From NCBI GenBank assembly GCA_003222845.1, contig QHXG01000245.1, positions 1 through 33,758 of the forward strand: a stretch of 33,758 nucleotides of DNA. Reading direction: 5' to 3'. A model generated the notes under the pieces. That model ran no database searches. It was not told the DNA's origin and was given only the letters and a program-made list of their open reading frames with translations. Of the stretch, positions 2,744-19,594 are shown in pieces (position 1 is the stretch's first letter; the number at the start of each line of letters is the position of its first letter). Origin of the DNA: Acidobacteriota bacterium (lineage in GTDB: Bacteria; Acidobacteriota; Blastocatellia; Pyrinomonadales; Pyrinomonadaceae). The position numbers were made by a program, and so were the translations under genes.

Positions 2744-4786
2744 TCACTCGCTAATTGCCTTTCGAATCTCCGCCAAATCAGGATCGTTGGGCTGAGGGCC
2801 CAACTCCAGATACCGTGACCATGCAGCCTTCATCTTAACTAGATTGGCAGGATCGTAAACCGTAAGTTTGCGGTATGCCTGGCCGAGCTGCTTGAAGATC
2901 AGCGGTGGTGGATTAGGAATGCGCGCTGTAATGTCTTCCAAACCGGCAGCCCCTGCTTCCAGCATTTCACGATCATTTCCATGCGCCGCTCCGTAGCTGA
3001 TCAGAAAGCTGGAGCGATTGAACCGCGCGGCCCAATAGTCTTTTATCAGCAGGTTCTCCCACGATCCGCTCGGGTAAGTGCGCAATGTGTTGAGGTCAAA
3101 ATTTGGAAGCCCTTTTTCGCTTTCTTCAACGTAGGCGTGAGCGTTGAAACCGTCTCGATTGGAGACGATCATATTCAGGGTTCCGAATGGCCAGAATTTG
3201 TAGTCTTTTTCCCAGCTCCTATCGGTCTCGTATAAAAAAGAATCCAGATTAATAAACATCCTGAAGCGGTTGGCGTTTGCATCGAAGAGCTGTTTCGTAT
3301 CGTAGCCGGCAGTCCCGGGCGCTCCATAGAATGGGCCGGGAATCGTGACTTCCGGATAATTGGCGTTCACCAATCGCTTCATCCAAGTCTTCTTCAAATA
3401 CTCCTGATCAATCACGCGAACGTCGTTTCGATAGCCTTCGCACTGCTGCAGATAACCGAGCACATTGATCATCAGGTCGCCCTTGGTCCAGAGAAGGGAA
3501 CCGGGAGGAAGCGCTGTAAGTAATGCGCGTCCATAATCTCTGATTACGAAGTTATGCCTCTGGCTCTCGGTCGCGAAATTTGTCAACGCGTGCGCTGAGA
3601 TCACCAACACCGCGACCGACGCCATTTCCACATTCCGCCAACGCGATTGGGGAATGAAAGCAGCCAGCGCGCCGAAGCCAAGCCCTGCCCACACACAGAC
3701 CACAAGTGTTGCCTGCTGCCAGAACCGCATGTGGATTCCGAGAAAGAGAGGATCATCCAGCGGAAGATTCGCCAGCGCATGGAAGACGAGCACGTACAAG
3801 CAAAATGCGACTACCGTCGTCGTAGTCAAACTAGCCGTTTTCTTATTACGCAGAGCGAAGTACAGACCGATTAATGCCAGGACTAATCCTATGTAATAGA
3901 CTTGAGCCGGCAACGCTAAAAAAAACTGGCGCATACCCAGCAGGAAATTTCCCCGAGTGTCCAACTTGTGCGCACCGAGCTGAAGCGTTCCATACTCACG
4001 CCTCAGCAGGTGGACCACAAAGCCCTTCAACGTGGACGTGTGCCCCCAGGAAAATGGCGCCGTGTGAAGATCGGCCAGCGGAAGATAAACATAAGGAAGA
4101 AGCCCAACGCAGAAACAAACGGCTGTTACCATCAGCGGTCTGAGCGACCAGAGCTTTGCGCGCCCGGTAATGAAGATCCACACCATGATGGGCGCACCGA
4201 AGAAGAGGCTGGTGTGGTGATTGGACATTCCCAAGCCGAAGGCGAGGGCACTGAGATAGGCAAATTTTAGTTCGCGGTCTTCCTGGTAACGGACTGCCAG
4301 ATAGATCATTAGCGCTACGATCAGATTATTTAGCGCAAAGACCTCGGCGACTACCGCGTAACGCCAGACCAAAGGCGAAAATGCAAACAGCCCCGCAGCC
4401 AACAGACCCGCCCAAGAATTCCTGGTCCAACGTCTGACCGCCAAAAGCAATATCACCGCCGCGCCTGTGTCGCACAGGGCTGACAACAGATTTACCCGCC
4501 AGGCAATCGTACCGAAAGGAATGAATGTGAAGAGCTTCGCGAGCATCGTGAACAGCGGATAACCAGGCGGATGCGCCACGCCTGATTTGTAAGCGACGGT
4601 AATTAGTTCTCCCGTGTCTCCACCGACGATACTTGGCGCCAAAGTGCTGAGGTAGACAAGAAAAACTCCGAGAGCGGCGATCACGGGTAACCCCCATCGG
4701 AGCAGTCTGGACTCTTGATCATGCGCCGGTTCTATTGGTGAGAAGGATGGAAGCTCAGCCGGTCGATTCCGGTTTTTCTTCGCCAT
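2744..4786 (-). CDS. DUF2723 (PF11028) family membrane protein, putative protein O-mannosyltransferase-like GT-C
   Basis: 680 aa; LAPSIVGGDTGELITVAYKSGVAHPPGYPLFTMLAKLFTFIPFG is the DUF2723 signature; many TM segments. Confidence 0.85.
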   Translation of the reverse strand: MAKKNRNRPAELPSFSPIEPAHDQESRLLRWGLPVIAALGVFLVYLSTLAPSIVGGDTGELITVAYKSGVAHPPGYPLFTMLAKLFTFIPFGTIAWRVNLLSALCDTGAAVILLLAVRRWTRNSWAGLLAAGLFAFSPLVWRYAVVAEVFALNNLIVALMIYLAVRYQEDRELKFAYLSALAFGLGMSNHHTSLFFGAPIMVWIFITGRAKLWSLRPLMVTAVCFCVGLLPYVYLPLADLHTAPFSWGHTSTLKGFVVHLLRREYGTLQLGAHKLDTRGNFLLGMRQFFLALPAQVYYIGLVLALIGLYFALRNKKTASLTTTTVVAFCLYVLVFHALANLPLDDPLFLGIHMRFWQQATLVVCVWAGLGFGALAAFIPQSRWRNVEMASVAVLVISAHALTNFATESQRHNFVIRDYGRALLTALPPGSLLWTKGDLMINVLGYLQQCEGYRNDVRVIDQEYLKKTWMKRLVNANYPEVTIPGPFYGAPGTAGYDTKQLFDANANRFRMFINLDSFLYETDRSWEKDYKFWPFGTLNMIVSNRDGFNAHAYVEESEKGLPNFDLNTLRTYPSGSWENLLIKDYWAARFNRSSFLISYGAAHGNDREMLEAGAAGLEDITARIPNPPPLIFKQLGQAYRKLTVYDPANLVKMKAAWSRYLELGPQPNDPDLAEIRKAISE

Positions 4787-5049: not shown

Positions 5050-7092
5050 TCAGTTGCTGACGGCATTTCGAATCTCCGTTAAATCAGGGTCGTCGGGCGA
5101 AGGACCCAGCTCGAGATACCGTGACCAAGCATCTTTCATCTTAACGCGATAAACGGGATCGTAGATGGCAAGTTTGCTATAAGCCAAACCTAACCTCTTA
5201 AAGACCCATGGTTCGCGGAGGTGAGCACGCTCGACCGAATCCGCCAGGCCCGCGGCGCCCGCCTCCAGCAGGTAGCGATCATTTTCGTGAGCGATTCCGT
5301 AATCGATTAGGTAGTCGGCTCGGTTGAGGCGGGCCTCCCAGTAATATTTCAGCATCTCGTTTTCCCACGAGCCATTTGGATATCTGGCCAGCATGGCCAC
5401 ATCTAATTGAGGCAGTGCACTCTCGCTTTCGCGAAGATAAACGTAGGGATCGATTGACACATGTTTTGAAACGATCCAGCTTGTCATTCCAAAAGGCCAC
5501 ATGCTGTAATCCTCATCCCAACTCCAATCGATATTCGCGCCAGCTTCCCAACGGTTGGCGAACATTTTGAAGTGCTCAACGTTCGCGTCAAAGAGTTGCT
5601 TGGCATCATAACCGCCAACTCTTGACCGGCCATAAACCGTCCCGGGAATAGTTACCTCAGGGTAGTTGAAATTCATTAGACGTTTCGCCCACGGAATTCT
5701 AAGCGTCTCGCGATCTATAACTCTGACGTCGCTTCGATACCCTTCGCACAGTTGTAGATAACGCGCTGTAAAGGTCACCAAATCTTCTCTCGACCAAAAT
5801 ATGGAATTTGGCGGCAGGGGCCTGAGTAACTCACGCGCGAAGTCCTGGGCGGAGGTGTTGAGGTGTTGGTCCGCAGCCCGAAAGTCAACGGCGACCTCGG
5901 CCAAAACCAGCGCGAAGACGATACCGGCAATCGGCACCCTGTGCCATTTCCATCGCGGAACCCAAGCCGCCAGCGATCCAAAGCCGACCCCTGCCCAAAC
6001 ACAGATCAAAATGTTCGGCTGTTGCCAGAACCGAGTTTGGACCTGAAGATAAAGCGGCTCACTAAAAGGTAGATTGGAGAGCGCGTTGAAAGCGATCAAG
6101 TACAAGCAAAACGATACCACCGTCGCCGTAGTCAGGCTGGTGTTTACTTTGCGATACAGATGGTGGGAGAGCCCGACAAGTGCAAGCACGATTCCAACAT
6201 AAAAGACATTTTCCGGCGCTGCGGAAAAGTATGCGTCAAGCCCACGAAAAAAATTTCCCGGTGCCTCTAATCGGTGCGCTCCGAGTTGAAGGGTTCCGTA
6301 CTCGCGTCTCAACACATGCGTAAAGAAGCCGTTCAGCGTAGAAGTATTTCCCCAGGAGACAGCCATCATACGAGTGTCCGCCAATGGCAGGTAGACGTAG
6401 GGCAATAAACCAACGAAAAAACAACCCGCGCTGATCAGAAGTTCTCGGAACGTCCAAAGCTCACGGCGTCCCGCGATGAGGATCCAAAACATGATCGGCA
6501 AACCGAAGAAGAGAGACGTATGATGATTGGACATTCCCAAGCCGAAAAAGAACGCGGTCAGATAGGCGTACTTTCGCTCATGTCCCTCAGCGTAACGGAT
6601 CGCTGAATAAAGCATCAACGCTACGATCAGATTATTAAGCGCGAAGACCTCGGCGATCGCGGCGTAACGCCAGACCAATGGAGAAAATGCAAACAGGCCG
6701 GCCGCCAACAGACCCGCCCACTCATTCCTCGTCCAGCGCCGAACCGCGAGCAGAATAATGACAGCAGCAGCGCTATCGCAGAGGGCGGACAACAGATTCA
6801 CGCGCCAGGCAATTGTGCCGAACGGAATGAATGTGCAGAGCTTGGCCAGCATCGTAAAGAGCGGATAACCGGGCGGGTGCGCCACGCCTAATTTGTAAGC
6901 GATGGTGACCAATTCACCCGTGTCTCCACCGACGACGCTCGGCGCCAGGGTTCGAAGGTAGATCAAAAAAACACCAAGGCCGGTGAGCGCGGGCAGGGCC
7001 CATCCAAGCAAGTAAGGGTCTTGCTCGCCGGGGTCCGTTTCCGGTTCTCTTGCTAGCGCTAAAACAGGCTGACCGCGCTCTTCATCGGACAT
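5050..7092 (-). CDS. DUF2723 (PF11028) family membrane protein, tandem paralog of 2744..4786
   Basis: 680 aa; LAPSVVGGDTGELVTIAYKLGVAHPPGYPLFTMLAKLCTFIPFGTIAWRVNLLSALCD, nearly identical to its neighbour in the N-terminal catalytic region. Confidence 0.85.
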   Translation of the reverse strand: MSDEERGQPVLALAREPETDPGEQDPYLLGWALPALTGLGVFLIYLRTLAPSVVGGDTGELVTIAYKLGVAHPPGYPLFTMLAKLCTFIPFGTIAWRVNLLSALCDSAAAVIILLAVRRWTRNEWAGLLAAGLFAFSPLVWRYAAIAEVFALNNLIVALMLYSAIRYAEGHERKYAYLTAFFFGLGMSNHHTSLFFGLPIMFWILIAGRRELWTFRELLISAGCFFVGLLPYVYLPLADTRMMAVSWGNTSTLNGFFTHVLRREYGTLQLGAHRLEAPGNFFRGLDAYFSAAPENVFYVGIVLALVGLSHHLYRKVNTSLTTATVVSFCLYLIAFNALSNLPFSEPLYLQVQTRFWQQPNILICVWAGVGFGSLAAWVPRWKWHRVPIAGIVFALVLAEVAVDFRAADQHLNTSAQDFARELLRPLPPNSIFWSREDLVTFTARYLQLCEGYRSDVRVIDRETLRIPWAKRLMNFNYPEVTIPGTVYGRSRVGGYDAKQLFDANVEHFKMFANRWEAGANIDWSWDEDYSMWPFGMTSWIVSKHVSIDPYVYLRESESALPQLDVAMLARYPNGSWENEMLKYYWEARLNRADYLIDYGIAHENDRYLLEAGAAGLADSVERAHLREPWVFKRLGLAYSKLAIYDPVYRVKMKDAWSRYLELGPSPDDPDLTEIRNAVSN

Positions 7093-14289: not shown

Positions 14290-14315
14290 GGAGTTCGACT
14301 GGAGGAATTCCTTTG

Positions 14316-15263
14316 ATGGTTATCTTCGAGCGGGGAGTTAACTCAGGTTTCCCAGCGGCTAATCACCGCTGGGAAACCCCTCTTTCTATAGTTCTTTTTT
14401 CTGCTCTTTTCATGTTTGCCGGCGTTACTGTGAGTGGAGTTACAATCCACCAGGAGCCTGGCAAGTTAAAACAAAACGCGGCTAAGCCAGCGACAACGCA
14501 GGCGAGTCCGCAAAAACACCCGACGTGGCGCGTTAAGGTAGTTGAAGATTTCGGCGCGCCGTTTGTATCGGTGCACGCGAAGAAGGCGCTTTTCTCAGAC
14601 GTCGCTTCAGAGATTGGGCGTCAGTTGAAGTTGAAGGTCCCGATCCACGTAACTGATAAGGCCAAGCAGCAATTATTGACAGACGACTTCGACAATTTGC
14701 CCCTGGAACAAGCCGTTCGGCGTTTATCGCCACACGCGGTGATCGATTATGTCATGAACGGCGGCGCCGATCCGATGTACCCGGCCAGGAAGCAGGCGCT
14801 CACGATCTATTTTTTGGGGTCGGACGAGAAAGCGCCCGATGTTCCGGCTTGGATCATGAAGGACCCTAGTTCAGAGATGTACGTGGGTATGGTCTATGCG
14901 ACTGAAGATGAAGAGAAGGACGCCCGTGAGAAGCGGAAGAAGGATCTGCAAGTCGCATACAACGACGGCCTTTTTACCCTTCACGTCCACAAGCAGTTTT
15001 TAACAGATGTTCTGGAAGAGATTGCCGCGAAAGCGGGAATCGGCCTTAACATCCTCACGACGAACGGGGCGCAAAAGGAAATCGATCAAGTAGTAACCTG
15101 GGACGTCGCGGCCGTTAGTTTAGAAGAATTAACAAATACTTGGTTTCCGAGCGGTATTCGTTTATACTCGCGAACTGACTTGGAGAAAGATGTCTCAAAG
15201 CCACTTCGTCTGACGATTGAACCTAATCAGGACGCTCAGGCTGAGCAAAATGTCACACCTTGA
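14316..15263 (+). CDS. Secreted/periplasmic protein with STN (secretin/TonB short N-terminal)-like repeats
   Basis: ATG 14316 with GGAGG at 14301-14305; hydrophobic segment LSIVLFSALFMFAGVTVSGV; ALFSDVASEIGRQLKLKVPIHVTDKAKQQLLTDDFDNLPLEQAVRRLSP and later LTDVLEEIAAKAGIGLNIL...VTWDVAAVSLEELT resemble STN repeats. Confidence 0.6.
   Translation: MVIFERGVNSGFPAANHRWETPLSIVLFSALFMFAGVTVSGVTIHQEPGKLKQNAAKPATTQASPQKHPTWRVKVVEDFGAPFVSVHAKKALFSDVASEIGRQLKLKVPIHVTDKAKQQLLTDDFDNLPLEQAVRRLSPHAVIDYVMNGGADPMYPARKQALTIYFLGSDEKAPDVPAWIMKDPSSEMYVGMVYATEDEEKDAREKRKKDLQVAYNDGLFTLHVHKQFLTDVLEEIAAKAGIGLNILTTNGAQKEIDQVVTWDVAAVSLEELTNTWFPSGIRLYSRTDLEKDVSKPLRLTIEPNQDAQAEQNVTP
14346..14378 (+). terminator. Terminator-like hairpin, located inside the predicted 5' end of the next CDS
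   Basis: GGTTTCCCAGCGG (14346-14358), loop CTAATCA, CCGCTGGGAAACC (14366-14378), then cctctttctatagttctttttt. Confidence 0.5.
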
Positions 15264-15279
15264 CGGGAGGAACAGAACT

Positions 15280-15459
15280 TTGATCAAGCAACAAACCGAA
15301 ACTACTAAGCGGGAACTTACCCCGCAAGAGGGGCAGGCGACAGCGAGAAAGCTTTTTGTCGAACCAGAAATTTCAGGTCCAGTGAACGTTCTCGAAGCCA
15401 CGGCCTTCTTCCAGATCTTTACGGGTGGCACGGACCCGGGAACTGGTTTACCGGACTAA
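15280..15459 (+). CDS. Small peptide (59 aa), candidate RiPP precursor
   Basis: TTG start at 15280 with GGGAGG at 15265-15270, directly after the stop of the upstream gene (15261-15263). Product (M)IKQQTETTKRELTPQEGQATARKLFVEPEISGPVNVLEATAFFQIFTGGTDPGTGLPD. An alternative ATG at 15250 would overlap the upstream gene. Confidence 0.6.
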   Translation: MIKQQTETTKRELTPQEGQATARKLFVEPEISGPVNVLEATAFFQIFTGGTDPGTGLPD

Positions 15460-15507: not shown

Positions 15508-16548
15508 TTGCCGAAAGGGTTGCAAAACTTGGCTTGCAAGGTTGGACGACCGGCGTTGACGAGATATTACGCCATCGCCGGTCGTTTTCTGTGTGTTGAG
15601 GCCCTCGACGAGGCGTCCGCGACTTTATGCGACAAGTTTCTCCGCGACTTCCATCTTGCACCGCTGACTGATGACTCCGCTGCAAAGCCTTCTTACACCA
15701 TCAAGATTCGATCACGTGGGACACCACCTTCAGTACCTAAGGGACTCGAGAGTTTCGACGTGGCGTTTGGGCAGTGTTATGTCAAGGGGAATCGTTACTA
15801 CTTAGAAGTCGAAGATTCGTTAATCGTAGTCGGCGCTGAGAGTGAATCTTTGATCGATGTCTGGATCGGGACATCGCCCCATGCCAGGCAGCCACTATCC
15901 CTGGTAAACGTGATGTCGTATGCGCTCGAGGCGTCACTGAGGCGATGCGGGCTCTATCAGTTGCACGGCGCTGGCATCATCGAACCGCAAACAGATAGCG
16001 GCGCCTTGATAATTGGCGAATCTTGTAGCGGCAAATCGACTTTGGCGACACTTCTCGCGGCCAGAGGTTGGTCATACCTGACGGATGATGCGCTTCTCCT
16101 GAACCAGGAGGAAGATGGAGTGCGAGCGCGCGGAATCCGTAAGTTCTTCGCGGCCTCGGAAAAGACGCTCGCCGCGTGTCGATTACCCGAGATGGAGAGT
16201 GCGTTAGGTCCTCCGATAACTTCGGATCCCTCAAAGCGTCGCCTCGAGCCAGGCATCGCCTTTCCAGGAAGAGCGAAGGAATCCTGCATTCCTGGCGTGC
16301 TGCTGTTTAGTTCGATTACGAACAACCCGAAGAGCGTCATATCAAGTCTTAGTTCCGGCGAGGCCATGGCGCGGCTGATCAAATTTAACCCGTGGGCCAG
16401 CTATGATAAGGCGACGGCGCGCGAACATCTCCGACTGCTGAGTAGGCTTGCTAATCAGTGTCGAAGTTTCTTAATGGGCGCAGGGTTGGACATTTTAGCG
16501 AGCCCATCATGTGCCGAGGAGTTGTTAATACCTCTGCTGAAGACCTAG
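15508..16548 (+). CDS. HPr kinase/phosphorylase-like P-loop protein (HPrK-like, serine-kinase type)
   Basis: 346 aa, TTG start; YQLHGAGII...GALIIGESCSGKSTLATLLAARGWSYLTDDALLL shows a Walker A GxxxxGKST and a TDD motif as in HPrK-like proteins. Confidence 0.75.
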   Translation: MPKGLQNLACKVGRPALTRYYAIAGRFLCVEALDEASATLCDKFLRDFHLAPLTDDSAAKPSYTIKIRSRGTPPSVPKGLESFDVAFGQCYVKGNRYYLEVEDSLIVVGAESESLIDVWIGTSPHARQPLSLVNVMSYALEASLRRCGLYQLHGAGIIEPQTDSGALIIGESCSGKSTLATLLAARGWSYLTDDALLLNQEEDGVRARGIRKFFAASEKTLAACRLPEMESALGPPITSDPSKRRLEPGIAFPGRAKESCIPGVLLFSSITNNPKSVISSLSSGEAMARLIKFNPWASYDKATAREHLRLLSRLANQCRSFLMGAGLDILASPSCAEELLIPLLKT

Positions 16549-16658
16549 GAAGAGCCTGTACTCACACCTTATTCAGCAGATGCTCGGTGAGTCTTACCCG
16601 AAGAAGTTCTGATGTCCGCAAGAGTAAACGAATCAGCTACGGAAGTAGGGCCTTGACC

Positions 16659-18347
16659 TTGTCCAAATATCTTAGGCTTCTGCTTTTGGTACTGGCCGCA
16701 GCACTTGGTGCGCTTGATTCGTGGGCTTCGCGGTACTCCCTCAATCCAATGGGCGTTTCATACCTCGATATGGGCGACGCCTTTGTGCGCCGCGATTGGC
16801 AGACGGCGCTCAACGGTTTATGGAGTCCGCTCTATTCCTTGCCGCTTGGCCTGTTGGTTCGAGTCTTCAGGCCTTCCCCAAGCACGGAATTTCCGCTTGT
16901 ACATTTCGCCAACTTCCTGATTTACCTGACCGCGCTCTTTGCCTTTACGCTCTTCATGCGTGAGCTAGTGAGGTGGCAAAACGAGAACCGAGATTCAGTG
17001 TCCGAGCAAAGAACCATAGCCTTGCCTGAATGGGGAATGATGGCGCTTGGCTACGCGGTTTTCATTTGGTGCTCGCTAGGGCTGATAAAGATGGCGACGA
17101 CGGCGCCTGATCTGCTCTTTTCTGTCTTCGTTTATCTGGCCTTCGCTGTTTTGCTGCGAATACGCCGCGGGCTTCGAGACTGGCCCTCTTTCCTTCTGCT
17201 TGGACTAATTCTGGGTGTCGGTTATCTGGCGAAGAACCCGATGCTTCCGCTGGCACCGCTGTTCATATTGGTGGGGTTGGTTTTTGCCGGTGGGCTAAGA
17301 AAGGCAGGGGTGCGCTCAGCGGCCGCTATGCTCGGCATCTTCCTAACCGCCGGCCCATTTACAATTGCGCTCTCCGCCTCGAAACATCGGTTCACCTTTG
17401 GCGACAGTGGCAAGCTGAACTATTTATGGCACGTCAACAGAGTGCCGGCTTTTCACTGGCAAGGTGAAGAGGCTCGTTATGGCACTCCCAAGCATCCGAC
17501 CAGAAGAATCTTCGAGAATCCATCGGTCTATGAATTTGGGAGTCCGTTGAACGCGACTTACCCGCCTTGGTACGACCCATCTTATTGGTTCGAGGGCGCT
17601 ACGACTCAATTTGATCTCTCGCAGCAAGTAACAGCATTGCGAAGAAATCTCGCTACCTACCGGGAGATCTTTACCTATAGATCCAACCTGGCTCTGCTCG
17701 GAGGATTTCTGCTGCTTCTTTGCATTGGCCGCCGGAACTCGCTCAGAAACTTGTTGTCGGAATGGTGGCTGCCGATATTGTCATTCGCGGCATTTGTCCT
17801 CTATCTGCCGGTGCATGTGGAACCGCGTTACGCAGCGCCATTTATCCCCCCGATTTGGTTGACACTGTTTGCTGCTCTGCGATTACCGGTCAGCGAGAGT
17901 TCCAAGAAATTAATCAAATACGTAGCACTCATAACGGCAACGCTAATCATCCTTGCCCAGACGACGAGATCGCTTTCGTCGTTCCGCTCGGCCTTTGCCG
18001 CCAGACATCAGGCGGAGTTTGTGCAACTGCAGGTAGCCGACGGACTAAACCGCATGGGAATCCAACCAGGGCAGCCTGTGGGAACAATTAACTTCGATTC
18101 GTTTTGGCTGGCCGTTGTGCATTGGGCGCGATTGGCCCACGTTCATATCATCGCTGAGATACCCAACACTGACTCGAACACGTTTGCGACCGCGGATGAA
18201 TCGCGCCGGCGCCAAGTGATTGAAGCCTTTGCAAAAACGGGCGCGACCGCGCTAGTAGCGGAGCATGTGCCCAGAAACGTTACGTTACCGGGCTGGGAGC
18301 AAATCGGTGACACAGATTATTATGTGTTGAAGCTGAAATTGCCGTGA
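16659..18347 (+). CDS. Polytopic membrane glycosyltransferase-like (GT39/PMT-like)
   Basis: ORF 16458..18347; the first ~67 codons overlap the upstream CDS and look non-native. TTG 16659 gives MSKYLRLLLLVLAAALGALDSWASRYSLNPMGVSYLDMGDAFVRRDW; ~10 hydrophobic segments. Confidence 0.7.
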   Translation: MSKYLRLLLLVLAAALGALDSWASRYSLNPMGVSYLDMGDAFVRRDWQTALNGLWSPLYSLPLGLLVRVFRPSPSTEFPLVHFANFLIYLTALFAFTLFMRELVRWQNENRDSVSEQRTIALPEWGMMALGYAVFIWCSLGLIKMATTAPDLLFSVFVYLAFAVLLRIRRGLRDWPSFLLLGLILGVGYLAKNPMLPLAPLFILVGLVFAGGLRKAGVRSAAAMLGIFLTAGPFTIALSASKHRFTFGDSGKLNYLWHVNRVPAFHWQGEEARYGTPKHPTRRIFENPSVYEFGSPLNATYPPWYDPSYWFEGATTQFDLSQQVTALRRNLATYREIFTYRSNLALLGGFLLLLCIGRRNSLRNLLSEWWLPILSFAAFVLYLPVHVEPRYAAPFIPPIWLTLFAALRLPVSESSKKLIKYVALITATLIILAQTTRSLSSFRSAFAARHQAEFVQLQVADGLNRMGIQPGQPVGTINFDSFWLAVVHWARLAHVHIIAEIPNTDSNTFATADESRRRQVIEAFAKTGATALVAEHVPRNVTLPGWEQIGDTDYYVLKLKLP

Positions 18348-18367
18348 ATCCTCAAAAGGAGCTAAGG

Positions 18368-19594
18368 ATGTCCGAACTTGATTTCGATACTCTGATTTCG
18401 CCCTGCTCACGCGAACAGTTCTTTTCTGAGTACTGGGAAACGAAGCCGTTGCGGATTTCGAGACGCCAGCCTGACTATTACGGCTCATTGGTTTCGGGAA
18501 GCGACATAGATTACCTGCTCTCTGTTGCCTGTCTGCTCGATCGCGAGGGTGTCGAATTGCTTGGCTCCAAGGAACTCCGCGAGGGTTCGGACAAAAAACC
18601 TGCTTCGGCCCTTTATCAAGCCTATCGGCAAGGCGCATCCTTTAGAATCCGCGGAATAAATCGTTTTTGGAAACCTATCTGGACTTTGTGCATCCGAATG
18701 CAGGAACTGTTCGGTTTTCAAGTCGCAGCAAACCTATATTGCACGCCGGCAGACTCGCGTGCTCTCGATCGACATTACGATCTCCACGACACCATGCTGC
18801 TACAGGTAGCCGGCCGCAAGAACTGGCGTGTCTTTGGATCGCCGATTGAGCTTCCGCTTGAACATGTGCCGCTCATGAAATTCGAAAGGCCGATTGATGG
18901 TGTGCAATATCGCGGCGCTCCGGTCATTCGCGATGTGACGGCAAAATATGAACCGATCGAGCCGAGTGATGAGTTTGTGCTTGAACCCGGCGATCTCTTG
19001 TACTTACCCAGGGGGGCCGTACACGAAGCCCGGTCCGCAGATTCAATTTCTGCCCATGTGACAATCGGCATCTATCCTGTCACGTGGGTCGATCTAATCG
19101 CCGTCGCTCTGGGTCAGCTTGGATATCAAGACGTACGATTGAGAAAGGCTCTCCCGGTGGGCTTCAACTCAGCGGACGCGGCGATCAAAGAAGAGTTCGA
19201 CAAACTGCTAAATGAGGTCGCGAGATCCGCCGATGTTTCAAAGGCAATGGAAGAAATAAGGGCAAGTCTTACCTGGAACCAACAAGCTATTGGTGAAGGT
19301 TCGATTGCCGATTCTGAGCCTCGATCGATCGATGTTGAGACCCTTATCGAGCGCAGACCAGGATTATCGTGCAGGCTTGTAATGGATGGGGATTTTGTTC
19401 GTTTAGCGGCCTGCCATGGTGACCTTTCGCTGCCTAAATATTTCGCAAAGGCGATTCGTTTCGTTTCAGAGAATCAAAATTTCAGTGTGGGCGCGATTCC
19501 AGGCGGATTGAGCGATCATAGCAAGATCATACTTGCGCGCCGTTTAATCAATGACGGTTTCTTTCGCGTGGCGAAGAACTCGGTTCACAACTGA
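18368..19594 (+). CDS. JmjC / Cupin_4 (RoxA/MINA53/NO66-like) Fe(II)/2-oxoglutarate oxygenase
   Basis: ATG 18368 with AAGGAG at 18356-18361. FFSEYWETKPLRI; metal triad RHYDLHDTMLLQVAGRKNWRVF (HxD) and PGDLLYLPRGAVHEARS (distal H); C-terminal winged-helix-like region. Confidence 0.85.
   Translation: MSELDFDTLISPCSREQFFSEYWETKPLRISRRQPDYYGSLVSGSDIDYLLSVACLLDREGVELLGSKELREGSDKKPASALYQAYRQGASFRIRGINRFWKPIWTLCIRMQELFGFQVAANLYCTPADSRALDRHYDLHDTMLLQVAGRKNWRVFGSPIELPLEHVPLMKFERPIDGVQYRGAPVIRDVTAKYEPIEPSDEFVLEPGDLLYLPRGAVHEARSADSISAHVTIGIYPVTWVDLIAVALGQLGYQDVRLRKALPVGFNSADAAIKEEFDKLLNEVARSADVSKAMEEIRASLTWNQQAIGEGSIADSEPRSIDVETLIERRPGLSCRLVMDGDFVRLAACHGDLSLPKYFAKAIRFVSENQNFSVGAIPGGLSDHSKIILARRLINDGFFRVAKNSVHN

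Follow-up and report, generated by a model that had tools for sequence, protein, structure and literature searches.

Linear polyphosphorylated peptides (LPP), whose loci encode LppA/K/B/S/N/D, were described in 2026 from Bacillota and reported as restricted to Bacillota, with a precursor motif YxxPxVLxHQxIxFETxxS and an LppA leader carrying Y(-16), P(-13) and T(-1) (PMC13381572). In lasso leaders the corresponding residues are Y(-17), P(-14) and, at (-2), Thr or Ile; lasso precursor kinases share a signature of H, three G, K, S and DD, and the BsfK/B1/B2 biochemistry has been described for Bsf (PMC10368454). The leader proline is held in LppB by Asn33 and the hydroxyl of the leader Tyr is bonded by Asp70. 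An NTP_transf_5 nucleotidyltransferase is the usual partner in HPrK-type lasso and LPP clusters. A further cassette, SynChlorMet, combines an HPrK-like protein (ScmC) and a PqqD-like protein (ScmD) with the radical SAM proteins ScmE/F. The closest known kind to the acidobacterial locus described here is the LPP of Bacillota, and the locus as a whole is best explained, with good probability, as encoding the precursor of a lasso-related RiPP pathway that works without a cyclase.

The precursor ORF is a real gene. It lies in a window of 33,758 nucleotides, the whole stretch of DNA that was analysed, which is the entire contig C116 of an 851-contig assembly. The ORF (15280–15459, + strand; stop codon at 15457–15459) starts with TTG, 9 nt 3' of a Shine-Dalgarno GGGAGG read from the sequence (15265–15270) and 16 nt 3' of the stop of an STN-type gene, and its translation of 59 aa agrees residue for residue with the one proposed in the first-pass annotation of this DNA. 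Two other in-frame starts are present, TTG at 15217 and ATG at 15250; homologues use the start equivalent to 15280, with their own Shine-Dalgarno. Such homologues were found in 16 of 60 Pyrinomonadaceae genomes, the source genome included (E ≤ 3e-4), and an independent, alignment-based scan of GTDB contigs returned 17 loci of the precursor family. Seven columns are invariant in an alignment of 18 copies (A1), namely M1, F26, P29, L38, E39, T41 and F43, and a GGAGG-type Shine-Dalgarno precedes the start by 6–10 nt in 18 of 18 homologous copies. The start codon is TTG in 14 copies, GTG in three and ATG in one (window 15280; L060, L061, L062, L064, L065, L067 and L069–L074); with 17 of 18 copies non-ATG, the earlier suggestion that an unusual start could hide the gene is supported, and short length together with a non-ATG start can conceal an entire precursor family. 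The non-ATG start is conserved despite the strong Shine-Dalgarno, and may set a low precursor dose. Pfam and NCBIfam profile searches with the peptide gave no match. With a peptide HMM run against 396 genomes of the phylum, in which few genomes of the relevant genera were sampled, matches were confined to the source genus. Weak extra matches, with an in-frame stop codon, were recorded at G045:C44:585-719, G048:C353:1650-1805 and G031:C133:11072-11194, and are possibly decayed paralogues or chance.

The conserved part of the homologues is an invariant F-x-x-P...L-E-x-T-x-F block. In the window it corresponds to the putative RRE-recognition block FVEPEISGPVNVLEAT (15355–15402, + strand; residues 26–41), where, counted from the aromatic as 1, F1 is followed by P at 4, a branched aliphatic (I/V) at 6 and Thr at 16; F26, P29, L38, E39 and T41 are identical in 18 of 18 copies. 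The remainder, AFFQIFTGGTDPGTGLPD (15403–15456, + strand; residues 42–59), is variable among homologues and is the putative core, with a predicted cleavage position taken from the LPP/lasso register. Mean pN/pS is 0.56 for the whole peptide, 0.21 for the F-to-Q block and 0.87 for the tail columns, and pS exceeds pN within the motif in 151 of 153 pairs. Purifying selection acts on the motif block, and the tail is almost unconstrained. A conserved block joined to a variable tail is the pattern of a RiPP precursor, in which the leader is kept and the core varies; the first-pass proposal of such a precursor is supported, and the outcomes named there as refuting it, homologues away from HPrK genes and a lack of coding constraint, did not appear. 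The tails of the homologues span 11–18 residues, many being just 11–12, and a strongly conserved FFQ-type block stands right behind T41; the core would begin A/T-F-F or F-F (alignment A1), with Phe or Gln as residue 3. Gly-Gly tails (FTGGT, DFGGS; window 15412-15456 and L066:9696-9875) occur in just two cases, both in genomes that do not have the radical SAM partner described below; TDSG/TVDT-type tails take their place in the other homologues.

Directly 3' of the precursor lies a co-directional HPrK-like kinase gene (15508–16548, + strand), whose start is 48 nt away. A homologue of this kinase follows the peptide directly in 16 of 16 peptide-positive genomes, at a stop-to-start distance of about 0–76 nt or overlapping, in agreement with the linkage that had been proposed from the window; in a 17th genome with the kinase (G057) the contig ends at the kinase gene and the upstream side is unreadable. 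HMM matches to the protein are weak and a sequence search against the PDB gave no match. Its AlphaFold model (mean pLDDT 90) has the PEPCK/HPrK P-loop kinase fold according to Foldseek, the best PDB match being PEPCK (E 4e-10), and H153, G170, G175, K176, S177, D193 and D194 are kept, corresponding to the His, P-loop GxxxxGKS and Asp-Asp signature of the peptide kinases PadeK, BsfK and LppK. Two details count against the preferred explanation: the middle Gly of the Walker A motif, present in most relatives, is Cys173 in the source kinase, and the putative core has no Ser3, the residue that serves LppK and BsfK as acceptor.

In relatives the genes usually follow one another as NTP_transf_5, STN-type, peptide (in one or two copies), HPrK, radical SAM and PqqD, with the PqqD gene beside the kinase, a B2 gene near the cassette on the opposite strand, and two-component genes often flanking the locus. 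The B1/B2 pair, which in the source genome lies on another contig, and the radical SAM, STN-type and NTP_transf_5 partners had been missed in the first-pass annotation. The gene directly 5' of the peptide (14313–15263, + strand; cluster c3, 14 related loci, alignment A3) encodes an exported protein with STN/FecR_C-like repeats, FecR_C being matched in a relative at 9.5e-4. This protein is a constant upstream neighbour and may be a binding partner of the mature peptide. The NTP_transf_5 gene (4–1335, + strand; PF14907, 3e-64) adjoins the STN-peptide-HPrK unit in most relatives and stands 13 kb upstream of the cassette here; it is paired with a glycosyltransferase gene (1373–2599, + strand; PF13692), and the same pair is found beside the cassette in L074 (54% identity). 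Between the kinase and a JmjC gene lies a multi-pass membrane protein gene (16458–18347, + strand; true start probably near 16653), which gave no confident Pfam match and is of glycosyltransferase type by inspection. A scan of the cassette proteins found neither an SpI-like LppS nor an MsbA-like transporter, a B2 protein being present instead of the former; no dedicated exporter was identified, which weighs against the explanation preferred here.

In the source genome, the PqqD gene (1344–1622, − strand) and the B2 gene (889–1359, + strand) lie end to end on contig C526 (locus L087). This 4.3-kb contig is separate from the window, and the link of B1 and B2 to the peptide therefore rests on the relatives and on the genome bin, a point against the preferred explanation; with a bin contamination of 2%, C526 likely, if not provably, belongs to the source genome. 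The B2 protein passes the NF033537 lasso_biosyn_B2 model (42.4 bits, cut-off 33). The PqqD protein matches PF05402 at 2.3e-15, is matched best by the lasso PqqD models, and has the lasso RREs PbaB1, TfuB1 and TbiB1 as its nearest solved structures in the PDB. The residue equivalent to Asn33 of LppB is Asn in 15 of 15 acidobacterial RREs compared, and the equivalent of Asp70 is Ser in 13, Asn in one and Ala in one. The leader aromatic, in turn, is Phe in all copies and thus has no hydroxyl. Together these sequence differences suggest a matched loss on both partners, Tyr to Phe in the leader and Asp70 to Ser/Asn/Ala in the RRE, and a Phe leader facing Ser in place of Asp70 offers a natural test of RRE specificity.

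Co-occurrence across the 60 Pyrinomonadaceae genomes is strict. PqqD was found in 17 of 17 kinase genomes and in 0 of 43 others (Fisher p 2.6e-15, phylogeny ignored). The 17 include G007, whose match (E 4e-8) is truncated by a contig end, and unrelated PqqD matches near E 1e-7 occur in three non-kinase genomes; the distribution supports the earlier idea that the leader is of the RRE type and is read by a PqqD/B1-like protein. For B2 the corresponding counts are 17 of 17 and 1 of 43 (p 4.6e-14), and for the radical SAM gene 15 of 17 and 0 of 43 (p 2.6e-12), again with phylogeny ignored. The kinase genomes without the radical SAM partner are the source genome, where a search returned unrelated radical SAM enzymes only, and G012. 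Consequently, the radical SAM protein is regarded as accessory. Its best models are ScmE/ScmF, mycofactocin and tungsten-cofactor maturases, with NCBIfam scores far below the cut-offs.

Downstream of the membrane protein gene lies a JmjC_2 oxygenase gene (18344–19594, + strand; PF08007, 7.9e-24), with HxD...H ligands recognized by inspection. The first-pass annotation had tied this gene to the peptide, a link that is weak, though with some support: no such JmjC gene stands beside the peptide in 15 of 16 peptide genomes, and the only full-length relative in 97 genomes (G009:C237, 42% identical) lies 0.9 kb from B2 (L117:8876-11480), the sole B2 in a kinase-negative Pyrinomonadaceae genome. That JmjC gene also adjoins the two-component genes found on the borders of the cassette in relatives, and its position hints, short of proof, at JmjC as an alternative accessory modifier. 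Neither a kinase nor a peptide was found in G009, and the stretch between JmjC and B2 contains neither peptide nor PqqD; the locus resembles a cassette that has eroded.

Like the LPP loci, the cassette combines a discrete RRE, an HPrK-like kinase and an NTP transferase with no macrolactam cyclase, its leader is of the aromatic-x-x-P type with Thr 15 residues on and a variable tail, its setting is rich in glycosyltransferases, and several precursors per locus are possible (1–3 in LPP). The F-to-T spacing of 15 equals that of Y(-16)/T(-1) in LPP, and the spacing of lasso leaders is likewise the same. Unlike LPP, the cassette has Phe for the leader Tyr, Ser in place of Asp70 in the RRE, a B2 cysteine peptidase where LPP has the SpI-like LppS, a frequent radical SAM gene, a conserved STN-type partner and an acidobacterial host; the LPP precursor motif itself is not matched, as FxxPxV has Phe for Tyr and there is neither HQ nor Ser at +3. 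With the phosphorylated lasso peptides paeninodin and Bsf the cassette shares B1, B2, a nucleotidyltransferase, a YxxPxL-type leader and a kinase with the H-G-x-x-G-x-GKS-DD signature; it differs from them in the lack of a cyclase near the gene and of ring-forming residues, in Phe as the leader aromatic, and in keeping the penultimate-type Thr.

The lasso-type assignment made in the first-pass annotation is not supported in its strict form. A discrete RRE (B1, PqqD-like) and a B2 transglutaminase-like leader peptidase are present, and the leader register fits lasso precursors. Phosphorylated lasso peptides have been reported in other Acidobacteriota (PMC10368454), and Asn-synthetase genes are present in all genomes tested, four of them full-length in the source genome, all on other contigs. 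These points speak for a true lasso peptide whose precursor is unusual and whose cyclase would act from another locus; the four genes count against the cyclase-less explanation. However, a PF00733 search of the source genome and 18 related genomes found no Asn-synthetase-like cyclase near any cassette, in 16 genomes with the peptide, and the tails in alignment A1 have no conserved Gly/Ala/Ser/Cys at residue 1 and no conserved ring Asp/Glu at 7–9, many being as short as noted above. The nearest Asn-synthetase gene in the outgroup G065, about 10 kb away, was considered as a lasso cyclase and rejected, as it is AsnB-like and belongs to a polysaccharide cluster. With no cyclase nearby, and with neither a ring acid nor a small residue 1 conserved in the tails, the product is probably linear. 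A true lasso peptide is accordingly considered very unlikely and the label 'lasso peptide' is not supported, whereas 'RRE-dependent RiPP precursor' is. A redox-cofactor or radical-SAM product of the PQQ, mycofactocin or SynChlorMet-like type, for which PqqD would present the peptide to the radical SAM enzyme with the kinase as an auxiliary, draws on the 15 of 17 relatives with a radical SAM gene and its best models, and on the conserved FFQ-type block behind T41. Yet the NCBIfam scores are all far below the cut-offs, two genomes, the source included, combine the peptide with kinase, RRE and B2 while lacking this radical SAM gene, and the tail varies freely, unlike cofactor precursors; we hold this account to be unlikely. 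SynChlorMet itself resembles the cassette in having a kinase-like, a PqqD-like and a radical SAM protein, with ScmE as the best model of the last; it differs in that the cassette adds a B2 peptidase and can dispense with the radical SAM enzyme, and all matches to the NCBIfam ScmC/D/E/F, HprK_rel_A and PqqD_rel_X models are well under the curated cut-offs (77/400, 18–20/100 and 14–20/125 bits for the SynChlorMet models). The constant STN-type neighbour, the two-component genes often flanking the locus and the one or two near-copies per locus would also suit a peptide that is no secreted product but stays uncleaved and, as a regulator or scaffold, controls the kinase or the exported protein encoded next to it. 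However, a conserved leader with a variable tail and strict co-occurrence with the B2 leader peptidase fit a cleaved precursor, and such a role appears very improbable.

For the preferred explanation, a cyclase-less RiPP pathway, the N-terminal two thirds of the peptide would serve as leader, with the FxxPxV block bound by the discrete PqqD/B1-type RRE encoded on C526. Through the RRE the precursor would be offered to two enzymes. The HPrK-like kinase probably phosphorylates a Ser/Thr in the short tail, and the B2 cysteine peptidase probably cleaves at the invariant Thr41 or one residue further on; a linear, modified peptide of 11–18 residues would result. NTP_transf_5 and the glycosyltransferases may afterwards decorate the phosphate, and a further modification would be introduced, in most relatives by the radical SAM enzyme and in the source genome perhaps by the JmjC oxygenase. 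The pathway would constitute a linear, kinase-linked branch of lasso machinery in uncultured soil Acidobacteriota, equipped with a canonical B2 and, in most cases, with a radical SAM enzyme. More tentatively, the cassettes might form a distinct RiPP class of Acidobacteriota, cyclase-less and with FxxP leaders, RREs without the Tyr-bonding Asp, a lasso-type B2, modification by a kinase together with a radical SAM enzyme (or JmjC), and an exported STN-type protein as dedicated partner. They would then represent an independent, linear offshoot of the lasso lineage, with a peptide that acts at the envelope and not as a freely released antibiotic.

A more distant branch was found in another family of the same class, where three loci (L076, L077 and L079) have the order B2, peptide, HPrK, radical SAM, PqqD and NTP_transf_5, with B2 directly upstream in the cassettes. 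Their peptides (L076:9087-9242; L077:8773-8931, locus reversed; in L079 upstream of HPrK) fall outside alignment A1, carry Phe-x-Glu-Pro-Glu-Leu, again with Phe, and terminate in FIEPELKEFDQLEKQIQGLRVLEAFTASFLAP-like sequences; the family is apparently unnamed so far. The window of the source genome is itself rich in glycosyltransferases, and at 2744–4786 and 5050–7092 it contains tandem genes for 680-aa TMEM260-like proteins of the O-mannosyltransferase type, which belong to one protein cluster.
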